DNA of 64,000 nt, from NCBI GenBank assembly GCA_018798825.1, contig CP076355.1, positions 1,585,501-1,649,500 on the forward strand, read 5' to 3'. The notes beneath the pieces were generated by a model, which was not told the origin of the DNA, did not search any database, and saw only the letters and a program-made list of their open reading frames with translations. This DNA is from Ochrobactrum sp. BTU1. GTDB taxonomy: Bacteria; Pseudomonadota; Alphaproteobacteria; Rhizobiales; Rhizobiaceae. The stretch's first letter is position 1; each line of letters begins with the position of its first letter. Position numbers and translations under genes: made by a program. Of this stretch, positions 29,027-39,490 are shown one piece after another.

Positions 29027-30244
29027 TCAACGAGGCACCATGCCCGGCTGGTCGGAAGGCAACTTCCGCAAATCGACAACATCAATATTGAGGTGCTGTG
29101 CAACAAGATCCGCTGGCGTATGCGTCAGCCATGAAGAAAGCGACACTTCCTGATATTCCGCCGTCCTGAACACGGCGACGAATTGAAGATCGGTGGTGCC
29201 GGTGTTTTCGATAACGTGGCCCTGACTGCGCTTCACATAGCCGACATCACCAGCCCTGAAATCAGCAGTCTGGGCGCGTGGGCCTGCATCGAAAACGGTC
29301 ATGCGGCCTTCGCCCTTGATCCAGTATTGCCATTCGTCGGCATTTGGATGCCAGTGCAGCTCGCGGACACCACCGGGCTTAATCGTCTCGATTGCGGAAG
29401 CAATTGTAGTCGAAGCCTTGAAGATCGAACTGTCAGCCATGCGGATGGTGCCGGAACGGTTTTCTTTCAATGGCTTTGCAGAGCTGAGCTTGTAGGTGAA
29501 GGGAAACGGAGGCAGGCCAGCCGATGAAACCTCTTCCTGGTCGTTAGAAAGTTCCCCCGGCTCGCGACCCTGAAAAATCCAGAGATTGTTAAGCGGGATC
29601 GACTTCATCGCGTCTTCATCGATACCGAAATTCTTGGCAAGAATGCTGGGCGGTGTATGCGCCAGCCAATCTGTTACCAGCAGCGTATTGTATTCGGACT
29701 GATCACCTTCATCAAATGCCAGAACAAATTCGCAGCCATCAGGACCGAGCCCCTGCAAGGAATGCGGAAAGCCTGCTGGAAAGTACCAAAGATCGCCGGC
29801 TTCAACGTCCTGCACATAAGCGCGGCCTGCAGTGTCCAGAACAGTAATGCGGCAGCGACCATTGGTCATGATTGCCCATTCGGCCGCCCGATGCCAGTGC
29901 ATCTCGCGAACACCCCCTGCATTCAGGCGCATGTTGACGCCGGATATTTCCGCGGAAATTGCAAAGTCGGATTGTGTCAACTGACGCGCCCAGCCACCAT
30001 TCTGAATGCGCTTTGGCGCATTGTTGAATGAACCCCAGAAGAGCTGCATATCGCCAATATCGGTTGCCGGCGGATTCTGGAAAGATGGGAATTGTGCGTT
30101 GAGCGCCGGGTTCTTTGGGCCGGGATCGGTCAGACTTCCGGCATTGGCGTTGATTGCGCCTTCCGGCGGCAGATCAGGATTGCCGAATGTCGGCTTGCTG
30201 GAATGATCGTCGGCGCTCTTTGTCTCTATGCGATGGGTGGTCAT
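29027..30244 (-). CDS. bicupin, oxalate decarboxylase family
   Basis: 405 residues with two cupin domains. Each has the manganese motif HWHxxxEW or HWHPNADEWQYW followed by a second His (PAGFPHSLQ; SQGHVIENT). In place of the SENST lid of Bacillus OxdC, which carries the proton donor Glu, this protein has SEYNT; the Glu is kept and the neighbours change. It should convert oxalate to formate and CO2, though oxalate oxidase or another acid is possible. No signal peptide; start at 30244 follows GGAG. The two-component genes that follow probably control it. Confidence 0.88.
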   Translation of the reverse strand: MTTHRIETKSADDHSSKPTFGNPDLPPEGAINANAGSLTDPGPKNPALNAQFPSFQNPPATDIGDMQLFWGSFNNAPKRIQNGGWARQLTQSDFAISAEISGVNMRLNAGGVREMHWHRAAEWAIMTNGRCRITVLDTAGRAYVQDVEAGDLWYFPAGFPHSLQGLGPDGCEFVLAFDEGDQSEYNTLLVTDWLAHTPPSILAKNFGIDEDAMKSIPLNNLWIFQGREPGELSNDQEEVSSAGLPPFPFTYKLSSAKPLKENRSGTIRMADSSIFKASTTIASAIETIKPGGVRELHWHPNADEWQYWIKGEGRMTVFDAGPRAQTADFRAGDVGYVKRSQGHVIENTGTTDLQFVAVFRTAEYQEVSLSSWLTHTPADLVAQHLNIDVVDLRKLPSDQPGMVPR

Positions 30245-30320
30245 GGCGGCTTCTCCTCTCGTTGCCAGCGGCAACAATTTCTGATGCAGGAGAAGTTTAC
30301 GAGAGAAGGGAAAGGGCCAC

Positions 30321-30334
30321 ATCTATACCGAGGT
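30321..30334 (-). promoter_or_regulatory. putative regulator-binding motif before the bicupin gene
   Basis: On the minus strand ACCTCGGTATAGAT, 77 bases before the ATG. It shares 12 of 14 positions with ACCTAGGTATAGGT in front of the nearby histidine kinase. Confidence 0.5.
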
Positions 30335-30872: not shown

Positions 30873-31532
30873 TCACTTTGACGTTTCGCTGAGAAACTCT
30901 GCCTTGCGAACCAGATCGGCAAGAGAACGCACATCCATCTTGCGCATGACATTGCCACGATGAAGCTTAACCGTCACTTCACTGATGCCAAGATCAAAGG
31001 CGATCTGCTTGTTCATTTTGCCGGTGACAACAGCGTCCATCACCTCCCGCTCGCGCGGGGTCAATGTTTGCACCAGTTCGACGACAGCCTGATTTTGCGC
31101 TGCCTCCTGTCTGCGCACGCTATCGCGCTGCACAGCCGAACTCACCGCATCCAGCACATCCTGTTCCTTGAAGGGCTTGGTGAGAAAATCGACGGCGCCT
31201 GCCTTCATCGCACGCACCGTCATCGGAATATCGCCAAAGCCCGTCATGAAAACCACCGGCAGGCGAATTCCCGATTTTTCAAGCTGGCTCTGGAAATCAA
31301 GGCCACTGATGCCCGGCAAACGAACGTCGAGGAGAATGCAGCCCGGTCTTTCCATTCGCGATTGATCCTGGAATTTGGCCATGAAGGCTGCCGCTGTTTC
31401 AAATGCTTCCGCATCAAACTGCATGGATAAAAACAGATCCGCCAGCGATTCCCGCATCGACGGATCATCATCGATGATGAAGACCACAGGCTTGTCGTTT
31501 AGTTGTTTTTGAGGCTTGCGTATCTCAGGCAT
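30873..31532 (-). CDS. FixJ/NodW-type response regulator
   Basis: 219 residues: REC domain (IIDDDPSMRESL, Asp in ILLDVRLPG, Lys in LTKPFKE) followed by a LuxR-type helix-turn-helix (TPREREVMDAVVTGKMNKQI...SEVTVKLHRG). Its start overlaps the kinase stop by 8 bases, so the two are co-translated as a pair. Likely activates the genes preceded by the ACCTAGGTATAGGT-like motif; inference. Confidence 0.93.
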   Translation of the reverse strand: MPEIRKPQKQLNDKPVVFIIDDDPSMRESLADLFLSMQFDAEAFETAAAFMAKFQDQSRMERPGCILLDVRLPGISGLDFQSQLEKSGIRLPVVFMTGFGDIPMTVRAMKAGAVDFLTKPFKEQDVLDAVSSAVQRDSVRRQEAAQNQAVVELVQTLTPREREVMDAVVTGKMNKQIAFDLGISEVTVKLHRGNVMRKMDVRSLADLVRKAEFLSETSK

Positions 31533-33093
31533 CCTGCACTTCCCAATTGATCGGCAGGCGCATTTCAAATTCCGCGCCACCTGTTTCGTGATTGGTCCCG
31601 GTCAGAGTTCCACCGCTTGCTTCAACCGTGCTGCGGCAGATCGAAAGCCCCATGCCCATACCGGAAGCCTTGGTTGTATGAAAGGGCATGAACAGCCGCT
31701 TGAGCGTATCCTGATCTATTCCCGGTCCGCTGTCACGAATGCTGATCACCGCATGATCATTGTCGATGCGGCCAATGGTGATCACAATGGAACGCGAGCG
31801 GGTTCTGGATGCTTCCATCGCTTGAATGGCGTTGGTTACAAGATTGATAATCACCTGCTGAAGCTCAATCCGCACGCCCTCAATTACCGGCGAACGCCAA
31901 GTCTGTGCCATGCGAACCTGGGTACTGCTGCGTTGCAGCTCATGTTCCATGAGCGCAATGGTTTCGCGAACCAACATGGTAAGGTCGATGGGTTCCACCC
32001 GCCGTTTGGCCTGGCTCAGCATATTGCGCGTGTTCTGGATAATCTCGCTTGCGCGGTCACTATCGCGAATGATCCGTTCGGCAGAGCGCCGCACAGCGGT
32101 CAGGTCCGGGGGCTCGCGGTCGAGCCATCGCAGCACCGTCTGCGCATTGAGCATGATGGCGCCAAGCGGCTGGTTAAGTTCATGGGCAAGCGAGGCTGAC
32201 AAGGCACCGACGGTTGCGGCCCTCGAAGCTTTGGTCAATTCAGCCTGTGCTTCCACCAGCGCCTTCTGCGCCAGTTCACGCTGCGTAATATCGACCATGC
32301 TCAGCACAACGCGGTTGAAAGCGGCAGGATCGCTGGGGAAACTGATGCTGAGCAGCGCCAGCCGCTCTTCACCACTTTGGGTGTGAAATTCGACCTTGCT
32401 CTCAAAATAGCGCTGTTCATCGAGCAGCGCCTGCAACACATGCGCAAATTGGTCATCACGTGGTACGAAGAGACTGCCGAGTTGATGCGCCTGCCCCAGA
32501 TCAACCCCTAGAAGTTCATAGGCTGCTTCATTGGCAGCAACCGTATCGGTCATGCCAATACATTGCCGGACGAAATCCGGATGCGTGCGGGCATAGTCTT
32601 CAATATCAGTGACGCCTTGCGCCTTAAGCTGGATCAGATGCTGGCGAAGCCGCGAGTAATCACGCTCGCAAAGGGCAACGCGTGTGCGATCAAAAATTGA
32701 ACGATAGCGTGCTTCGCTATCTTTGAGCGCTGCGTGGGAGGCGAGCAATTCCTGCTGTCCCATTTTGTTTCTCAAAATGAGAACGGCTGTAACTACAACC
32801 GCAGCAACAGCGACCGCTAGACGGATCGTTGTCTGGAAATCCGGCTCCGGGCCATGGGTTGCATAATAGGATGTGATGGTGAGGATGAAACAGCCAATGC
32901 CGCTCAGGATAATGCCTGTGCGCCCTGTTACTTCGGCTGCCAGCAGCAGCACAATGGCATAGAGAACGGCAATAGCGCCTTCAATATCGGTGAAGGTATC
33001 AACGTAAAAGACACCAAGCGCCAGCGCCAGGGCGACAAAGCCCACCGCCAGTTCACTGCCTCGTTTGTGCACGCCCTCTGCATATTTAGACAT
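31525..33093 (-). CDS. FixL-type sensor histidine kinase
   Basis: 522 residues. About three to four N-terminal membrane helices (to about residue 110), a PAS-like region (about 130-270), a HisKA domain with the phospho-acceptor SLAHELNQPLGAI and an HATPase domain (NLVTNAIQAM, SGPGID, GMGMGLSI). The ELNQPL form is that of FixL/NodV-type kinases. No heme-PAS motif is evident, so the signal is unknown. Partner is the downstream regulator. Confidence 0.93.
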   Translation of the reverse strand: MSKYAEGVHKRGSELAVGFVALALALGVFYVDTFTDIEGAIAVLYAIVLLLAAEVTGRTGIILSGIGCFILTITSYYATHGPEPDFQTTIRLAVAVAAVVVTAVLILRNKMGQQELLASHAALKDSEARYRSIFDRTRVALCERDYSRLRQHLIQLKAQGVTDIEDYARTHPDFVRQCIGMTDTVAANEAAYELLGVDLGQAHQLGSLFVPRDDQFAHVLQALLDEQRYFESKVEFHTQSGEERLALLSISFPSDPAAFNRVVLSMVDITQRELAQKALVEAQAELTKASRAATVGALSASLAHELNQPLGAIMLNAQTVLRWLDREPPDLTAVRRSAERIIRDSDRASEIIQNTRNMLSQAKRRVEPIDLTMLVRETIALMEHELQRSSTQVRMAQTWRSPVIEGVRIELQQVIINLVTNAIQAMEASRTRSRSIVITIGRIDNDHAVISIRDSGPGIDQDTLKRLFMPFHTTKASGMGMGLSICRSTVEASGGTLTGTNHETGGAEFEMRLPINWEVQDA

Positions 33094-33969
33094 CTTTTGT
33101 CGTTCCCCAGATTCGACTGCGCGAAACCATAGAGCAATTTATGTGGTTGCGAACCTATACCTAGGTTTGGGTGCTAACCAGATCATCTAACGAACCTTAT
33201 CCGCGATCCGAAATCGACGATTGGTGAGACGAAACCGCATCAAGTACCTGCTTCTTTGAGGTTTTCTTTACGCAGAGGTAAAGGCGCGCGCCCGTAACTC
33301 CTTTCGGATTGCAAGCCTGGATGCGTGCTTCAATACCTCAAACCTTTGCCAGCACTTTGAAGTAACAACAACTCGCGGCGTTCCGTAAGCAGGAATTGTA
33401 GCCTCTTTCAGAACAAGCAAAGAGTGGAGCAAGCGAAACATCAGCGGCACCGTCACCGTAATAGCGCCTTTCATACGAACCGCTCGTGCCGCAGACTGCT
33501 TGAAAAACATCTGATGCTTAAGATTGACTGTACCCGTTAGCTCATCCACCACCGCACTTCAGAATGTGCACAATTGTTTCCTAGAGTGTTGCTGTATCTC
33601 AATGTTCGCCGGACCGTTCGTTAAGGTGGTCCATAGCGCCGTTCACAACACACAAGTCTTTTAATACTCAACGCCATGGCGAGCGCCTCATCCGCTCTTC
33701 GTACCCACCATAACGTTCTGGTTATTTAGCCTCTATCTTTTGCTGTGGATGATTTGTTCAAACCTGACAAAGTGCGATGGTCGTTTTGATGACGCAGTTT
33801 TATCTTCGATAGCGTGAGGTTATTTTCGCACCAACATGTAATTTCGTGTGGACATCCATAATAATTGCAAGCAAAATTCCTCAATAAAAGCATGTTTTCC
33901 GCCTTTTCCTGATCATGTAATATTTCTTCTTAGTGTGAGTTTCTTGAGCATTTGCAGGGGGGATTTGAA
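33094..33969. other. 876-base stretch without a convincing gene
   Basis: Contains the kinase promoter motif at 33153-33166. The longest frame (33268-33552, minus) has no proper ribosome site and no family. The right half is AT-rich and probably holds the promoter of the Mur-ligase fusion gene. Confidence 0.6.
33153..33166 (-). promoter_or_regulatory. putative regulator-binding motif before the histidine kinase
   Basis: Plus-strand ACCTATACCTAGGT, i.e. ACCTAGGTATAGGT in the sense of the gene, 60 bases before the ATG. It contains two ACCTA half-sites. Confidence 0.5.
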
Positions 33970-36099
33970 GTGAAAGATGATCTTGCCTGGACACTACACG
34001 AAGTTGCCAAAGCAACCAGTGGTCGCTGGTTGATTGAACCGCAGTTCGGGTGGCGTGCGACGGGTCTGGCAATCGCGGCTCAGACCTTCAAGGCCGGAGA
34101 TATGATTGCGGTCGCAAGGCACAATGAGGAACGAGGCCTCAGTCTTCAAAGCCTGCAAAGGCTTGCGACTAGGCCATCAGCGATAATCACATCTGCAGAC
34201 GTTGCCGAACTCCGAAAATTCGAAACTCCTTTGTTGCTGGTAGAAGATACCGGAAAAGCAATTCTCAATCTCGGACACAACGCTCGAGACAGATTTCGTG
34301 GTCGTGTCTTTGGCGTAACCGGCAGTGCCGGCAAAACGACATGCGTTGCAATGCTTTCGCATGCATTATCACCTTACGGCAAAACACAACATTCCGCACA
34401 TAATGCCAATCTACCACATGGCATCGCATGGAATCTGGCTTCTTTGGATTTGACAGCCTCAAACATTGTTTTGGAGATGGCCATCGGACGCATGGGTGTA
34501 AGTTCCCGAATGGCGCGGCCACATGTTGCGATATTCACAAACATTCAGCCTGTGCATCTCACCGAAACCAATACAACAAAAGATATTGCCAATACAAAAA
34601 GCGCGATCTTCTGGGGTATGAAGCCGGGCGATATTGCGATTATTAACCGCGACATGCTCGAATGGGATACAGTTTTTGCGGCAGCCACGAAGGCGAAGCT
34701 GCGGGTTGTCCATTTTGGACAGAGTGATGCATGCGACTATCAGATACTGAAATATGATGCGCAGGAAAACCTCGTCCGGGTAAAAACCCCTTACGGAATT
34801 AGAGAATATAAACTCGGCGCAGCTGGGCACCATATGGCGCTAAACAGCATCGCCGTACTGGCCGCTTTGGAGAGCGCAGGACTAGATCCGGGTGCCGCGC
34901 TCGCCTCCTTTTCGACATTTGGGGCATTGGCAGGCAGAGGCGAAAGCCTGCAGATCTGCATCGGAGGCAAAAATATAACTGTTATCGACGACGCATATAA
35001 CGCCAATCCCGGGTCGATGGCTGCTGCGTTGAACCGCCTAAGTGAAGAAAAGACAAAGGGACGTCGGATCGCTGTACTCGGACAAATGGCGGAACTGGGC
35101 AAAGATGCCGAACGGTACCACACCGAACTTGCGACACTGATTAACAAGCTTCCGATCGATAAAGTTTATATCTACGGAAAGCTTTATACAAAATTCTGGG
35201 AAGCGCTGGCAGATCATCGCCGCGGGCATTTTGCGCAGAGTTTAACTGATCTTCGTGAGTATCTTCTAGACGAGACCCGGTCTGATGATACGATCTTGCT
35301 GAAAGGGTCTAACAGCACGCGCGTGCACGAAATCGTCGAAAGTCTCAAGGCAAAAGCGACGATCCGAAGTGCACTTAATGTTTCGAACGAGACAAGTGCT
35401 CTTCTGCTGCGGTGGAGCGACGGACAGATATTATTCAATCAGGGCGCAGATTTAAAACACCCACCTGCATCAATCGCAAAGATCGTTACATTATGTCTCG
35501 TGCAGCGGCGCATGGAAGAGCTTCAGATCAACGGTGAGACGACAGTTCCCGTATCAGAAGCTGCCACTGATATTCAAAGCCTGTGGGGTTTTAGGGCAGG
35601 AACTCCTCAAACACTCGCCACACTAATCAAAGCCAACGCCATCATCAGTGCGAACGAGGCCAGCAATGCGCTTGCAGAATGGCACAGTGGTTCAATCGCC
35701 GCTTTTGTAGAGGAAATGAACTCTTATGCGCGATCTGTTGGAATGCGGGAAACGCTTTTTTGTTCTCCCAGTGGCCTCGGCATCAGACAGAAAACAACGA
35801 CGGGGGATCTGGCGATACTTGCGGGTCATGTCCACGCCAATTTTCCGGCACTGCTTCAGATTTTTGCTCAAAAGGATTTTCACTTTGAGGGAAAGACATA
35901 TCTGAACATCAACCCATTTCTCGGACACAGTGGCATAACCGGACTTAAAACAGGCTCTCTGGGTCCCTCACGACACCACGTCGTGCTTACACGGACGGTA
36001 AAGGGTGAGTTGTTCATCTGCGTCATCCTGAGTGCTCAGAGCAAGCAGGAACGCCAACGTATCGGGTATGAGCTTCTGAAAGCATGTTTGCCTCTGTGA
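33970..36099 (+). CDS. Mur ligase (MurF-like) fused to a D,D-peptidase S11 domain
   Basis: 709 residues from a GTG at 33970 behind AGGGGGG; the frame opens 18 bases earlier with TTG. Residues about 1-450 are a Mur ligase of MurF type: N-terminal substrate domain, P-loop GVTGSAGKTT (Lys122), NATP-binding and C-terminal ligase domain (DDAYNANPGSMAAAL, AVLGQMAELG). Residues about 470-709 are a penicillin-binding S11 domain with SxxK (Ser501, Lys504), SAN (560-562) and KTG (660-662). No signal peptide or membrane segment is seen, so the peptidase domain should be cytoplasmic, unlike normal DacA proteins. MurF joins D-Ala-D-Ala to UDP-MurNAc-tripeptide and S11 enzymes cleave D-Ala-D-Ala ends, so ligation and hydrolysis chemistry are joined in one chain. 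The true substrate is unknown. Confidence 0.85.
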   Translation: MKDDLAWTLHEVAKATSGRWLIEPQFGWRATGLAIAAQTFKAGDMIAVARHNEERGLSLQSLQRLATRPSAIITSADVAELRKFETPLLLVEDTGKAILNLGHNARDRFRGRVFGVTGSAGKTTCVAMLSHALSPYGKTQHSAHNANLPHGIAWNLASLDLTASNIVLEMAIGRMGVSSRMARPHVAIFTNIQPVHLTETNTTKDIANTKSAIFWGMKPGDIAIINRDMLEWDTVFAAATKAKLRVVHFGQSDACDYQILKYDAQENLVRVKTPYGIREYKLGAAGHHMALNSIAVLAALESAGLDPGAALASFSTFGALAGRGESLQICIGGKNITVIDDAYNANPGSMAAALNRLSEEKTKGRRIAVLGQMAELGKDAERYHTELATLINKLPIDKVYIYGKLYTKFWEALADHRRGHFAQSLTDLREYLLDETRSDDTILLKGSNSTRVHEIVESLKAKATIRSALNVSNETSALLLRWSDGQILFNQGADLKHPPASIAKIVTLCLVQRRMEELQINGETTVPVSEAATDIQSLWGFRAGTPQTLATLIKANAIISANEASNALAEWHSGSIAAFVEEMNSYARSVGMRETLFCSPSGLGIRQKTTTGDLAILAGHVHANFPALLQIFAQKDFHFEGKTYLNINPFLGHSGITGLKTGSLGPSRHHVVLTRTVKGELFICVILSAQSKQERQRIGYELLKACLPL

Positions 36100-36231: not shown

Positions 36232-38166
36232 ATGACCATGAGCGCAATATATTCCGCTGTCCTTACAACTCTGAAACGCTCGTGGTCGTTGTTAAAATGG
36301 CGCTTTCTAAAGAGCGCATTCGTGCTCGCTGGTATTCCACTACTGATCGGGGCGAGAGCGGACGAGCGGGAAAAACTCGGCCCATTTACTGCAACAAATC
36401 CGCAGGTATTGCAGGAGCCAAAGGATGCAGAGCATTTCGATATACGTGAGGCCCTGCATGGCTCCACCGCAAGCTCTGAGCAATGTTCCGCAATAGCGAA
36501 TTCGCTTTGGGTAAATGCCGCGGGGCCTGGCGAATGCATTCGCTATTATGGCTCGGGCCTTCAGCACCGCGCTAACCCCTTGGTAATGGTTTATTTCAGT
36601 GGCGATGTGCTGTTACGCAACGCCGACGGGCAAAGAAGCGTGGTTCCGTCTTACGGAAAACAATCACCTTCTTCGATTACTGAAGAAATGACGGAATGGT
36701 CGGAGGCCGCCGGTGTCCCGGCGATATTTCTAGCCCGTCCCGGTCTTTTTGGATCCTCAGGAGATCACAATAAACGTCGACAAAATCGGGAAATCGAGCT
36801 TATGCAACACGCGATTTCTCTCCTCAAGGATCGCTACCAGATCCAATCTTTCATCTTCGCAGGTCATTCGGGCGGCGGACAAATAGTTGCAGGTCTTCTC
36901 AACAAACGCGACGATATAAGGGCAGCGGTCATATCTTCCGGCCTTGTTTCCGTAAAGCAGGTCACAGATTACTGGGAGTTTCGCCGCAACATCCCAGGAC
37001 GTCTTCTTTACGATTCCCGCGAGTTTTACGATCCCATTGACCATTTAAAGAATGTTGCGAAATCTGACCGTCCGGACGTATACGTTATCTCGGATCCGGA
37101 AGACCAGACAATCCCTTTCTTTACGCAGTTGCGCTATGTACGCCGGCTCAAAACAACTGGCTTCGATCCGCACCATATATTTGCGCATGCACCAGATCCG
37201 TCACACCATTTACTTTCCAATTACGCGAAAATTGCTGCTGCTATGATTGCACAGGGTAACAGTTCTGCCGAAATACGACGAACGCTTGCGCTACATGATG
37301 CCAGTCAGATCGCATCGAGGGAAGAGCGAAACAAATCACCAGAAGTTCTGACAATACCCCCGCCCTATGTTAGTGCCGAGAGCGCTTTATCCGTGTTGAT
37401 ACCGGATGCTACCGATAACACGCAGAAAATCCTGTTCTCTAAAGCGGGCGAAAAGCAGCTCCCGCCTGCATCCGTGACCAAACTGATGACTGCAATCGTC
37501 GCAATTGACATCAGCAGAAAGTTACGACTGGGCCTATCGCATAAAATAGTGGTTCATGCGGACGATCTGGTGGGTGGATCAGGAAACAATCTGAAGGTCG
37601 GCGATGTATTATCGCTTGAGGCTGCAATCGCCAACTTGATGCTGTCTTCGTCGAATGTGACGGCGAATGCTGTCGCCCGAAGCATGGGCGCTGTAATGAG
37701 AAGAGAGGAGCATCACAAAGAAAGCGACCCAGACGTTTTCGTACGCCAGATGAACAATAGAGCCCAGACGCTTGGCATGACGCGAACTGTCTTCATGAAC
37801 CCATCAGGGCTTTCAGCTTCGGGACAGGTAACAACAGCCAAGGATCTCGCGAAGCTCGCGGTCGAAGCACTGAAATATTCTGAAGTATCAAGAGTGTGGG
37901 GAGACAAACAATATACTATAGTAGTCGAGGGGCCTCACGCGCGCAAATTAGCACTATCGAACCCAAATCCCCTCTATAAGGACTATGATATCATTGGCGG
38001 TAAAACGGGGGCACTCGTTCCAGGTCTTTTCAATATCGTGGTCGTTTCCCAGGCGCCAGGAGATAGATTGCTTGTCACTGTCAGTTTGAAGTCTCCCTCG
38101 GAAAACGAGCGGACGAGAGACGTGCGCACGTTGATTGACTGGGCGAAGCGCAATCAAGCAAAGTGA
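36232..38166 (+). CDS. alpha/beta hydrolase fused to a D,D-peptidase S11 domain
   Basis: 644 residues. An N-terminal hydrophobic segment (about 25-41) ends in a signal-like GARADE, so the protein is exported or membrane-anchored. Residues about 90-345 form an alpha/beta hydrolase with nucleophile GHSGGG (Ser213), an acid in SDPEDQ and His in PSHHLL. Residues about 375-644 are an S11 D-Ala-D-Ala carboxypeptidase-like domain with Ser414-x-x-Lys417, SSN (473-475) and Lys591-Thr-Gly. It follows the Mur-ligase fusion by 132 bases and both share an S11 domain, which suggests one pathway acting on D-amino-acid peptides on both sides of the membrane. AAAGGA precedes the ATG. Confidence 0.85.
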   Translation: MTMSAIYSAVLTTLKRSWSLLKWRFLKSAFVLAGIPLLIGARADEREKLGPFTATNPQVLQEPKDAEHFDIREALHGSTASSEQCSAIANSLWVNAAGPGECIRYYGSGLQHRANPLVMVYFSGDVLLRNADGQRSVVPSYGKQSPSSITEEMTEWSEAAGVPAIFLARPGLFGSSGDHNKRRQNREIELMQHAISLLKDRYQIQSFIFAGHSGGGQIVAGLLNKRDDIRAAVISSGLVSVKQVTDYWEFRRNIPGRLLYDSREFYDPIDHLKNVAKSDRPDVYVISDPEDQTIPFFTQLRYVRRLKTTGFDPHHIFAHAPDPSHHLLSNYAKIAAAMIAQGNSSAEIRRTLALHDASQIASREERNKSPEVLTIPPPYVSAESALSVLIPDATDNTQKILFSKAGEKQLPPASVTKLMTAIVAIDISRKLRLGLSHKIVVHADDLVGGSGNNLKVGDVLSLEAAIANLMLSSSNVTANAVARSMGAVMRREEHHKESDPDVFVRQMNNRAQTLGMTRTVFMNPSGLSASGQVTTAKDLAKLAVEALKYSEVSRVWGDKQYTIVVEGPHARKLALSNPNPLYKDYDIIGGKTGALVPGLFNIVVVSQAPGDRLLVTVSLKSPSENERTRDVRTLIDWAKRNQAK

Positions 38167-38354: not shown

Positions 38355-38435
38355 ACACTATCCGTTCATCTGATTGAGCTGCCCTGCTTCGCTGCCTAAG
38401 CTGGGAGCATATCGACGTTGCAAAGGAGTTCGATC

Positions 38436-38948
38436 ATGCCGGGCGATAATCCTCTTTCACACGCACTCGCTGCAGGCACCGTTGCGCCTGCGTTCACTTT
38501 ACCTGCTACGGCGGATCAGACGGTATCGCTCAGCGATCTGCGTGGCGCTCCGGTGATACTCGCATTTTACCCGGCTGACTGGAGCCCGGTCTGCAGCGAT
38601 CAGATGGGACTTTATAACGAAATACTGCCGGAATTTCATCATTCGAAGGCACAGCTGCTCGGCATATCAGTGGATGGTGTGTGGTGCCATGCCGCCTTTG
38701 AAGCAGAGCGTAAATTGCATTTCCCGCTTCTCGCAGATTTTGAGCCCAAAGGTGAAGTCGCCCGGAACTATGGCGTTTATCGCCAGAAAGATGGCGTTGC
38801 AGAGCGTGCGCTCTTCGTCATCGATGCCGATGGCATTATCCGATGGAGCTATGTTTCGCCCCTCGGCATCAACCCGGGAGCCGATGGCATTCTTGAAGCA
38901 CTCGACATGCTTGAGGCCAAACCAACCGCTACGGAGCTGCAACCATGA
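38436..38948 (+). CDS. peroxiredoxin (AhpC/TSA family, BCP/AhpE-like)
   Basis: 170 residues. Peroxidatic Cys in FYPADWSPVCSDQ; typical thioredoxin-fold regions LLGISVDGVWCHAAF and FPLLADFEPKGEVARNYGVY. Reduces hydroperoxides in the cytoplasm. It has a second Cys in the DGVWCHAAF segment that could act as a resolving Cys. AAAGGAG gives a strong ribosome site. Its stop overlaps the next gene by four bases (ATGA), so the DsbA-like protein may be its reductant. Confidence 0.92.
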   Translation: MPGDNPLSHALAAGTVAPAFTLPATADQTVSLSDLRGAPVILAFYPADWSPVCSDQMGLYNEILPEFHHSKAQLLGISVDGVWCHAAFEAERKLHFPLLADFEPKGEVARNYGVYRQKDGVAERALFVIDADGIIRWSYVSPLGINPGADGILEALDMLEAKPTATELQP

Positions 38949-39490
38949 GCAAGTTGAGCATTCCTGTCAGTAAACAGGATCACATCCAGGGTTATGAGAG
39001 AGCCGCTGTAACCCTTGTCGAATATGGCGACTATGAATGCCCTTATTGCGGCGAAGCTTATTACGTTCTGAAAGCAGTGCAGAAGGCAATGGGTGAGGAT
39101 CTACGCTTCGTGTTCCGTAATTTCCCGCTCGCAGAAATACATCCCCATGCGCTTCACGCTGCGGAATTTGCTGAAATGGCAGCTACACAAGGCCTGTTCT
39201 GGCAAGCCCATGATCTTCTCTACAAAAACCAAAACGCGCTGACCGATCATGATCTCCTCGCATATGCGACAGCTCTCGGCATAGCGCCAGCGACCGTCGC
39301 AACCGCCTTCGACGGCCGTTTTCAGGAGCGCATTGAAACAGATTTCCGCGGTGGATTGCGAAGTGGCGTCAATGGCACACCAACGCTTTTCATCAACGGC
39401 ACGCGATATGATGGTGCTCGCGACGCGGCTAGTCTGGTTACTGTTCTGCGAGAAGTGAAGAATTTGCTTGTCTCAAATCAAAGCAGATAG
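38945..39490 (+). CDS. DsbA-family thioredoxin-fold oxidoreductase
   Basis: 181 residues. Active site ECPYCGEAYYVL near residue 33, cis-Pro motif in NGTPTLFINGTRYDG. No signal peptide, so it is a cytoplasmic DsbA-like (Thioredoxin_4) protein. Translational overlap with the peroxiredoxin gene suggests a redox pair that detoxifies peroxides. Confidence 0.92.
   Translation: MSKLSIPVSKQDHIQGYERAAVTLVEYGDYECPYCGEAYYVLKAVQKAMGEDLRFVFRNFPLAEIHPHALHAAEFAEMAATQGLFWQAHDLLYKNQNALTDHDLLAYATALGIAPATVATAFDGRFQERIETDFRGGLRSGVNGTPTLFINGTRYDGARDAASLVTVLREVKNLLVSNQSR

Follow-up and report, generated by a model that had tools for sequence, protein, structure and literature searches.

What could an amide-forming ligase and a D,D-peptidase do when they are joined in one chain that apparently stays in the cytosol? 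This question is raised by a gene of Ochrobactrum sp. BTU1 that lies in the window analysed here, a stretch of 64,000 nucleotides from contig CP076355.1 (positions 1,585,501 to 1,649,500), and that fuses a MurF-like ligase to a penicillin-binding domain of the Peptidase S11 family (Table 1). We found that this fusion belongs to a broader group of related modules, which often lack the peptidase and can carry ATP-grasp ligases or a glycosyltransferase in place of the Mur ligase. Judging from the genes that recur around it, the module very probably acts on the Asp-x tract of a giant surface adhesin. The explanation that best combines our results is that the fusion would tailor the (Asp-Ala)n tract of an adhesin with D-Ala-D-Ala in the cytosol, with trimming or transfer by the S11 domain, before the adhesin is exported. 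We hold this fuller account to be probable, with moderate confidence.

A first-pass annotation, made from the sequence alone, had proposed that a complete Mur ligase and an S11 domain without a signal peptide share one chain, and most of this description was borne out. The frame is uninterrupted, with zero internal stops, and Pfam recognized Mur_ligase_M (residues 116-299, 1.2e-28), Mur_ligase_C (331-447, 6e-19) and Peptidase_S11 (475-690, 1.3e-34), all three above their curated cut-offs. Lys122 of the P-loop and the S11 residues stand where they had been placed; S501/K504, S560-A-N562 and K660-T-G662 were verified residue by residue. With PF00768 above its cut-off and with the SxxK, SxN and KTG motifs, the fusion thus has what defines a Peptidase S11 enzyme. 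The Pfam search of the fusion protein reported neither the PBP5 C-terminal domain nor a glycosyltransferase domain. The AlphaFold2 model has a mean predicted local distance difference test (pLDDT) score of 93.2 and a predicted template modelling score (pTM) of 0.74, and it runs through residues 450-470 without a low-confidence break (block means 91 and 72). In fold comparisons, the Mur part matched solved MurFs (A. baumannii 4qf5, template modelling score, TM, of 0.85 by target) and the S11 part matched PBP5-type enzymes (5tr7, TM 0.88-0.89). A frameshift or an assembly join near residues 450-470, which the annotation had named as a possible flaw, is excluded by the open frame, the recurrence of the fusion and the continuous model. 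The N-terminus shows no hydrophobic stretch, the maximal 15-residue hydropathy within residues 1-70 being 0.99 versus 2.06 for the adjoining gene (36232-38166) by the same measure. By this simple hydropathy measure, the fusion lacks the export signal that characterizes S11 enzymes, and an amide-forming and a D,D-peptidase module appear to share the cytosol. The genome that contains the window (G000) codes for six S11 domains, two of them in adjacent genes of the window.

The Mur part is structurally complete, as had been claimed, but it is not an ordinary MurF. We compared 28 rows of the family with 22 reference MurFs, whose loci suggest that they are canonical (a twenty-third contained a stop and was removed). 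A position was taken as conserved when at least 85% of the references agree, and as different when the commonest family residue is unlike. The family differs at 12 of 23 conserved positions in the N-terminal domain, at 21 of 59 in the central domain and at only 3 of 32 in the C-terminal, amine-donor domain. The MurF motifs S-I-D-x-R, D-G-H-x-F and N-N-H-W-G are lost, while the ATP site, K210, H288, N292, D340, YNANP and K445 are retained. Mur ligases bind the UDP portion of their substrate through the N-terminal domain and the incoming amine through the C-terminal one, and we take the changed residues to be contacts of UDP-MurNAc-tripeptide. Hence, the donor side resembles that of MurF, and the acceptor is probably something else. 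In agreement with this, the protein falls below the curated MurF cut-offs (256.7 versus 288.6 bits for TIGR01143, 287.9 versus 544 bits for NF010693) and its family stands apart from MurF in a tree of 58 rows with a support of 100/100 (three MurF rows). On these grounds we rejected an ordinary MurF. The fusion is 29-32% identical to the housekeeping MurFs of the genus, and the likely housekeeping MurF of this genome is a separate gene (G000:C1:1464826-1466217). Nor is the fusion a cyanophycin synthetase, as it scores 25.0 versus 850 bits and has no ATP-grasp domain. In two genomes of the same genus (G007:C13 and G026:C2), we also noted frames of more than 2,000 amino acids (aa), each with two Mur-ligase stretches.

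The fusion is recurrent. Relatives were collected by a protein search, in which 7998 candidates of up to 1,240 aa were scored and the best 120 of 995 were considered, and by a family scan of genome contigs, which gave the best 80 of 562 confirmed loci. Among 24 database proteins compared, 16 share the fusion, 13 of them built as toroid-MurF-S11, and the hosts include genera that we take to belong to the Hyphomicrobiales and Sphingomonadales, among others. A copy in other data (P0001) is 98% identical. The S11 motifs are intact in 17 of the 19 fused rows, or in 14 of 16 after removal of near-duplicates. In the tree, whose S11-less rows are every fourth listed protein, the S11-bearing rows are scattered; the one-change figure that the tool gives for gain or loss of S11 disregards 34 unlabelled rows. 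Moreover, a Vreelandella relative (L043) has the family ligase fused to VanY (PF02557), an unrelated D,D-carboxypeptidase, with no tract in that stretch. A free-standing S11 copy elsewhere in S11-less genomes was considered and discarded, no match above 37% identity being present in 14 such genomes. In Ectorhizobium, an S11 stretch (L058:13033-13704) lies just behind the toroid-Mur gene in a different reading frame, as a separate gene or a frameshift.

The neighbourhood of the family points to its substrate. In Alpha- and Gammaproteobacteria, the neighbours are the toroid domain, an exported hydrolase, a type I secretion system (T1SS) and an adhesin of the BapA type that contains an (Asp-x)n tract. 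In the neighbourhood set of 31 loci (L027-L029, L031-L058), a T1SS ABC gene (at least 42% identity) occurs in 20 and an alpha/beta hydrolase in 13. Gene clustering across 30 loci recovered the ABC cluster, which also contains unrelated transporters, in 23, the large adhesin in 21, TolC in 19, HlyD in 13 and four further clusters in 3 or 4 loci each. Asp-x alternation of at least 10 pairs was present in 23 of the 31 loci, with tracts of up to 500 pairs. Asp is constant in these tracts and its partner is mostly Ala, also Ser or Gly (489 Ala, 10 Gly and 1 Ser in L033; 139 Ala and 41 Ser in L051; 291 Ser in L056), and the longest pure (Asp-Ala)n runs of neighbouring adhesins range from 10 to 342 copies. 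The tract begins at residue 142-163 in all nine adhesins checked, and the BapA_N prefix domain was found in all four adhesins scanned from their start and is missing in a 290-aa piece (L048). Six to eight of the eight synonymous hexamers are used in each of nine tracts, which indicates selection on the protein sequence. Among the eight tractless loci, in L039, L040 and L046 an adhesin-like frame leaves the locus before its start, L043 ends inside the T1SS, and L032 and L057 are short Paraburkholderia contigs with toroid, Mur and hydrolase only. In the genome studied here, a (DA)229 adhesin (C2:104674-109695; DA, Asp-Ala) is followed by TolC, ABC and HlyD genes (C2:104674-114674 in all) and does not adjoin the fusion; its ABC and HlyD proteins are 59% and 66% identical to those of Agrobacterium, and TolC is 23% identical to that of Nitratireductor. 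In its BapA_N adhesin on C3, the portions inspected contain no tract, and on C1 a short BapA_N frame adjoins 35 Asp-x pairs. A Sulfitobacter locus (L171:24661-32349) has a toroid-Mur gene and a (DA)158 BapA adjoining polyketide synthase and condensation-domain genes.

The partner domain has an (alpha/alpha)6 toroid fold, as in AGE, GH76 and GH88 enzymes. Its name is taken from the fold search, since it has no Pfam match above cut-off (GH88 scores of 17.5 bits for P0017, 15.9 for L029 and 19.8 for this genome, versus a cut-off of 26.6). We next considered how toroid and tract co-occur in a phylum sample of 398 genomes, the window's own included, where the search for tracts extended some 500 aa at most past the best BapA_N match in each genome, and less far at contig edges. 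BapA_N exceeded its cut-off in 28 genomes, and the toroid was found in two of these (G000 and G595). The same two have tracts, (DA)229 in G000 and Asp-Ser in G595, with 142 pure copies within 952 Asp-x pairs, and none of the 26 toroid-less genomes has one behind its best match. Additional BapA_N matches over cut-off, checked in G000, G694, G712, G777, G577, G744 and G791, revealed no tract in the six toroid-less genomes among them; this check covered neither the matches on contig C55 of G674 nor the below-cut-off matches of G730. The co-occurrence has a Fisher p of 0.0026, or 1 in 27 (0.037) without this genome. Starting instead from the toroid, the three other strong matches in the genome samples each adjoin an Asp-x tract protein, with (DG)88 in G358, Asp-Ser in G595 and, where a contig of G894 ends, at least 49 Asp-Ala pairs. 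These three cases balance the bias from including our own genome, so that our estimate was left unchanged. In G358, where BapA_N was not found, the (Asp-Gly)88 protein (L167:2787-5957) lies directly upstream of a 39% identical toroid gene.

Among all loci of at least 8 kb, which were mostly fetched through the ligase family and are therefore not unselected, 28 have toroid and tract, 12 the toroid only, 4 the tract only and 58 neither. Of the tract-only loci, L166 and L119 come from genomes with a toroid at another place, L051 contains a family Mur, and L055 contains a Mur and a 25% toroid; among the toroid-only loci, L111 and L121 cover one and the same site of G000, and L165 forms one region with L166, each being half of it. 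In the order sample of 397 genomes, the toroid occurs in three, strongly in G000 and G358 and at E 9e-4 in the third, and BapA_N in seven, strongly in G000 only. Most Paracoccus lack the toroid, given that one of 101 genomes of the genus sample (G894) has a strong match; a genome of the Paracoccus group, G827, has a weak one (E 6e-4). In plasmid records, 51 have BapA_N, 54 have the toroid and 23 are in both lists. Among nine of the 51 viewed for tracts, L027, L028, L130, L131 and L170 have one and L132-L135 do not. The BapA adhesins of Sphingomonas, Pantoea and Variovorax records are tractless; the first two genera are absent from the toroid plasmid records and Variovorax is present. Two of 23 staphylococcal, enterococcal and listerial toroid records were inspected (L172, L173). 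The Staphylococcus haemolyticus plasmid has toroid, Mur and a tract of 290 Ala and 86 Ser partners, and its tract protein and that of Enterococcus gilvus have a YSIRK signal or an LPXTG anchor; BapA_N was not reported for either, and the stretch yielded no T1SS gene. The toroid is a rare yet taxonomically scattered domain. In several staphylococcal, listerial and Acinetobacter plasmid records it is annotated as a poly(glycerol-phosphate) alpha-glucosyltransferase, a label of teichoic-acid enzymes; one 538-aa gene so annotated (L173:443-2059) is covered by the toroid match.

The enzyme that the toroid carries is interchangeable. The toroid of A. tumefaciens Tul002 shares a chain with ATP-grasp modules, one of YheC/D type and two stretches closest to cyanophycin synthetase, under cut-off, beside a (DA)249 adhesin and the hydrolase. 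In Ignatzschineria, it carries a YheC/D ATP-grasp enzyme; a Mur gene is adjacent, and of the two adhesins there one is DA and the other DS (Asp-Ser). In K. aerogenes and G595, where the tracts are Asp-Ser, a GT4 glycosyltransferase is attached to the toroid; SdgA and SdgB are the nearest matches of the G595 enzyme (138 and 134 bits versus a cut-off of 800). Beside DA tracts, we found MurF-like or ATP-grasp ligases. Given this distribution, the toroid-borne enzyme would suit the side chains on offer, namely hydroxyl and carboxylate in Asp-Ser and carboxylate only in Asp-Ala. Behind the module of G894 come a PGA_cap-Mur fusion and, where the contig stops, the final part of a D-Ala-D-Ala ligase gene. 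A further match of the CapA (PGA_cap) domain in this MurF-like fusion (L176:10492-13611) is to the lasso-peptide epimerase MslH, with 61 bits versus a cut-off of 700.

From these data, the following sequence of events can be proposed. The toroid, fused in many relatives and a separate gene on the same replicon here, would engage the (Asp-Ala)n tract while the adhesin is still in the cytosol, ahead of its type I secretion. The MurF-like ligase would activate Asp side-chain carboxylates with ATP and couple D-Ala-D-Ala, and the fused S11 domain would remove the terminal D-Ala or use it as a leaving group in a transfer. The adhesin would then be exported with D-amino-acid caps, and the exported alpha/beta hydrolase, which in this genome has an S11 domain too, may act on the product outside the cytosol. 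A D-Ala-D-Ala donor is suggested by the MurF-like donor side, the S11 and VanY fusions and the D-Ala-D-Ala ligase fragment of G894. The view of the first-pass annotation that this is dedicated chemistry rather than wall synthesis is supported, with D-Ala-D-Ala as the presumed donor. A wider version of this account makes the toroid the core of a modular Asp-x tract machine of Gram-negative and Gram-positive bacteria, guiding the repeat past interchangeable enzymes. The MurF-S11 and VanY-MurF versions would add D-Ala-D-Ala to every Asp side chain and cut it back to D-Ala, so that a polyanionic repeat of an exported adhesin would become a brush of D-amino-acid isopeptides, similar to cyanophycin but templated by a gene. 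We put this version forward tentatively, as a possibility that is more doubtful than the tailoring of the adhesin tract.

Several observations weigh against tract tailoring with D-Ala-D-Ala. In Ignatzschineria, the ligases adjoin a DS as well as a DA adhesin, and hence enzyme and tract are not strictly paired; the SdgA/SdgB-like case comprises two very similar loci only. L037 and L041 have toroid-Mur and no adhesin within 10 kb. Both Variovorax records are counterexamples, with a toroid yet tractless BapA adhesins, and Variovorax L169 has toroid and Mur and no tract within 18 kb. Conversely, L131 and E. gilvus L172 have a toroid beside a tract and no Mur match nearby. In the genome studied here, ligase, toroid and adhesin are scattered on one replicon, over a 159-kb arc if it is circular, and the inclusion of this genome in the phylum sample weakens the co-occurrence test. 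Regarding the peptidase, S11 is present in 3 among the best 120 of 995 relatives of up to 1,240 aa, and two of the 19 fused rows (P0004 and P0139) have degenerate motifs. Wall precursors might be at risk, too, from a D,D-peptidase in the cytosol. Finally, the donor and the bond are read from homology and from fusion partners.

Among the alternatives, the one that survives best, although we deem it unlikely, is that the module acts on the Asp-x tract with another donor (an amino acid, an amine or a sugar-amine) and that S11 is a binding or regulatory remnant. Donors can vary, as ATP-grasp ligases and a glycosyltransferase stand in for the Mur ligase at other loci, and a remnant would accord with the 117 among the best 120 of 995 relatives that lack S11 and with the degenerate motifs just mentioned. 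However, the donor-side domain is near-unchanged from MurF, with 29 of 32 conserved positions kept, and the S11 motifs are otherwise intact and VanY was fused independently. Less probable still is that S11 works as a cytosolic transpeptidase, swapping the terminal D-Ala of Asp-bound D-Ala-D-Ala for an amine and so cross-linking or attaching tracts. S11 enzymes act via an acyl-enzyme, and the two-gene module of the window has two S11 domains, one apparently cytosolic and one apparently exported. Against this, VanY, a metallo-carboxypeptidase that forms no acyl-enzyme, substitutes for S11 in one relative, and no acceptor amine is evident. We find it improbable, to a somewhat greater degree, that the module makes or edits a peptidoglycan-like or small D-peptide, to anchor the adhesin or for another use, with the tract being incidental. 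MurF and S11 are wall enzymes by origin and the Variovorax loci would suit such a role, but the conserved acceptor-side motifs of MurF are altered, all toroid-less BapA genomes of the phylum sample are tractless behind their best match, and the two Gram-positive systems share toroid and tract with Gram-negatives and none of the secretion genes sought.

The salvage route and the self-protection enzyme that had been suggested for this fusion now appear very improbable. The intact D,D-peptidase motifs and the hydropathy-based lack of a signal peptide would fit either role, but the gene families found in at least 10 of 30 loci are ligase, secretion, adhesin and hydrolase; with a T1SS and a giant Asp-x tract adhesin as recurrent neighbours, tailoring of a surface protein fits better. 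An assembly error or chance fusion, for which the interrupted frames of the same-genus B. cytisi copy might speak, is in effect refuted by the near-identical P0001, the 16 fusions and the continuous model.

The gene that follows the fusion codes for a second S11-bearing protein, which the earlier annotation had passed over; its motifs (SVTK, SSN and KTG) are intact too. Its S11 domain is 29% identical to the first, and its hydrolase part, which is 51% identical to the hydrolase adjoining a toroid-Mur gene on an Agrobacterium plasmid, belongs to the family that partners the ligase at other loci. The hydrolase-S11 fusion is not common, as none of 215 plasmid records covers 80% of it at one place. 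The idea that all exported genes in this position are hydrolases was also refuted, by three proteins with no significant match to the hydrolase: a 318-aa protein of K. aerogenes, its G595 counterpart and a 314-aa protein of Vreelandella. The exported-looking 314-318 aa proteins beside the tailoring module (L170:23179-24135 and L043:14467-15411) have an HExxH motif (HEFFH, HELFH) and no Pfam match, and are candidate metallopeptidases. Elsewhere in the window, a bicupin of the oxalate decarboxylase family (29027-30322; TIGR03404, 538 bits) is separated from the fusion by a sensor kinase (31525-33093) and response-regulator-like frames. On the same strand, both S11 genes are followed by peroxiredoxin and DsbA-like thioredoxin genes (38418-39490), which are outside the gene clusters common to the loci of relatives.

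Table 1. Features of the fusion gene and of the adjoining hydrolase gene, in window coordinates.
Feature	Position	Strand	Remark
MurF-like ligase / S11 D,D-peptidase fusion	33970..36099	+	709 aa, GTG start
Fusion from alternative start	33952..36099	+	TTG at 33952; 715 aa, matching P0001
N-terminal (acceptor-side) Mur domain	33970..34299	+	residues 1-110
P-loop TGSAGKTT	34318..34341	+	residues 117-124, contains Lys122
DDAYNANPGS	34987..35016	+	residues 340-349; C-terminal domain motif retained from canonical MurF
S11 domain	35392..36039	+	residues 475-690; Pfam
S11 motif SxxK	35470..35481	+	residues 501-504
S11 motif SAN	35647..35655	+	residues 560-562
S11 motif KTG	35947..35955	+	residues 660-662
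Alpha/beta hydrolase with signal-like N-terminus and second S11 domain	36232..38166	+	644 aa
N-terminal hydrophobic segment of hydrolase	36304..36348	+	residues 25-39; signal peptide or anchor, by simple hydropathy only
Alpha/beta hydrolase part	36280..37299	+	
Second S11 domain	37396..38019	+	residues 389-596

If tract tailoring with D-Ala-D-Ala holds, it would represent a new protein modification, in which a wall ligase put to another use caps the Asp side chains of a ribosomal repeat with D-amino acids, and long pure Asp-Ala tracts would thereby gain a function. The first-pass annotation knew of no such architecture, and we likewise found no title or abstract start describing the module in the open text of PubMed Central (PMC), subscription papers and outside preprints being beyond this coverage; the word "ligase" is absent from the texts PMC5588039, PMC3426421 and PMC13235738. 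Apparently, no described system matches an amide ligase and a D,D-peptidase acting on a ribosomal repeat, and the comparison must be drawn part by part. With MurF, the fusion shares the fold, the P-loop, the catalytic core and the C-terminal amine-donor motif, but its family has altered acceptor-side motifs, a clade of its own and fusions to S11 and, in relatives, to the toroid. With the S11 D,D-carboxypeptidases (PBP5/DacA), it shares SxxK, SxN, KTG and the PBP5-type fold, whereas it has no signal-like N-terminus and no PBP5 C-terminal domain by Pfam, and its peptidase is placed behind a ligase. BapABCD of Paracoccus denitrificans likewise pairs a T1SS with an adhesin of Asp-Ala repeats, of which BapA has 891; the accessible passages of the published account mention no tailoring enzyme, and they report a gel migration above the true mass for which modification was not excluded (PMC5588039), a puzzle that would become testable. 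In G894, the order ABC-HlyD-TolC is that given for bapBCD in those passages (PMC5588039), with the toroid right behind. In cyanophycin synthetase CphA1, which has Mur-like (M) and ATP-grasp (G) domains, the Mur-like domain adds Arg to poly-Asp side chains (PMC9262961). Amidation of Asp side chains along a repetitive chain by a Mur-like domain would thus be common to both systems, and cyanophycin synthetase models are the best matches of the ATP-grasp modules in L130 (373 bits versus a cut-off of 877). In our case, however, the chain is a ribosomal, exported adhesin, the donor is thought to be D-Ala-D-Ala and there is no Asp polymerization. Tract tailoring as such has a precedent in SdgA and SdgB, which glycosylate the Ser-Asp repeats of staphylococcal adhesins (PMC3794999). 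Like these enzymes, the family of the fusion is associated with a dipeptide-tract surface adhesin, and they are the nearest matches of the enzyme on the G595 toroid, beside an Asp-Ser tract. The system described here differs in its toroid domain, its T1SS adhesin and its carboxylate-amine ligase, so that the acceptor would be Asp instead of the Ser used by SdgA and SdgB.

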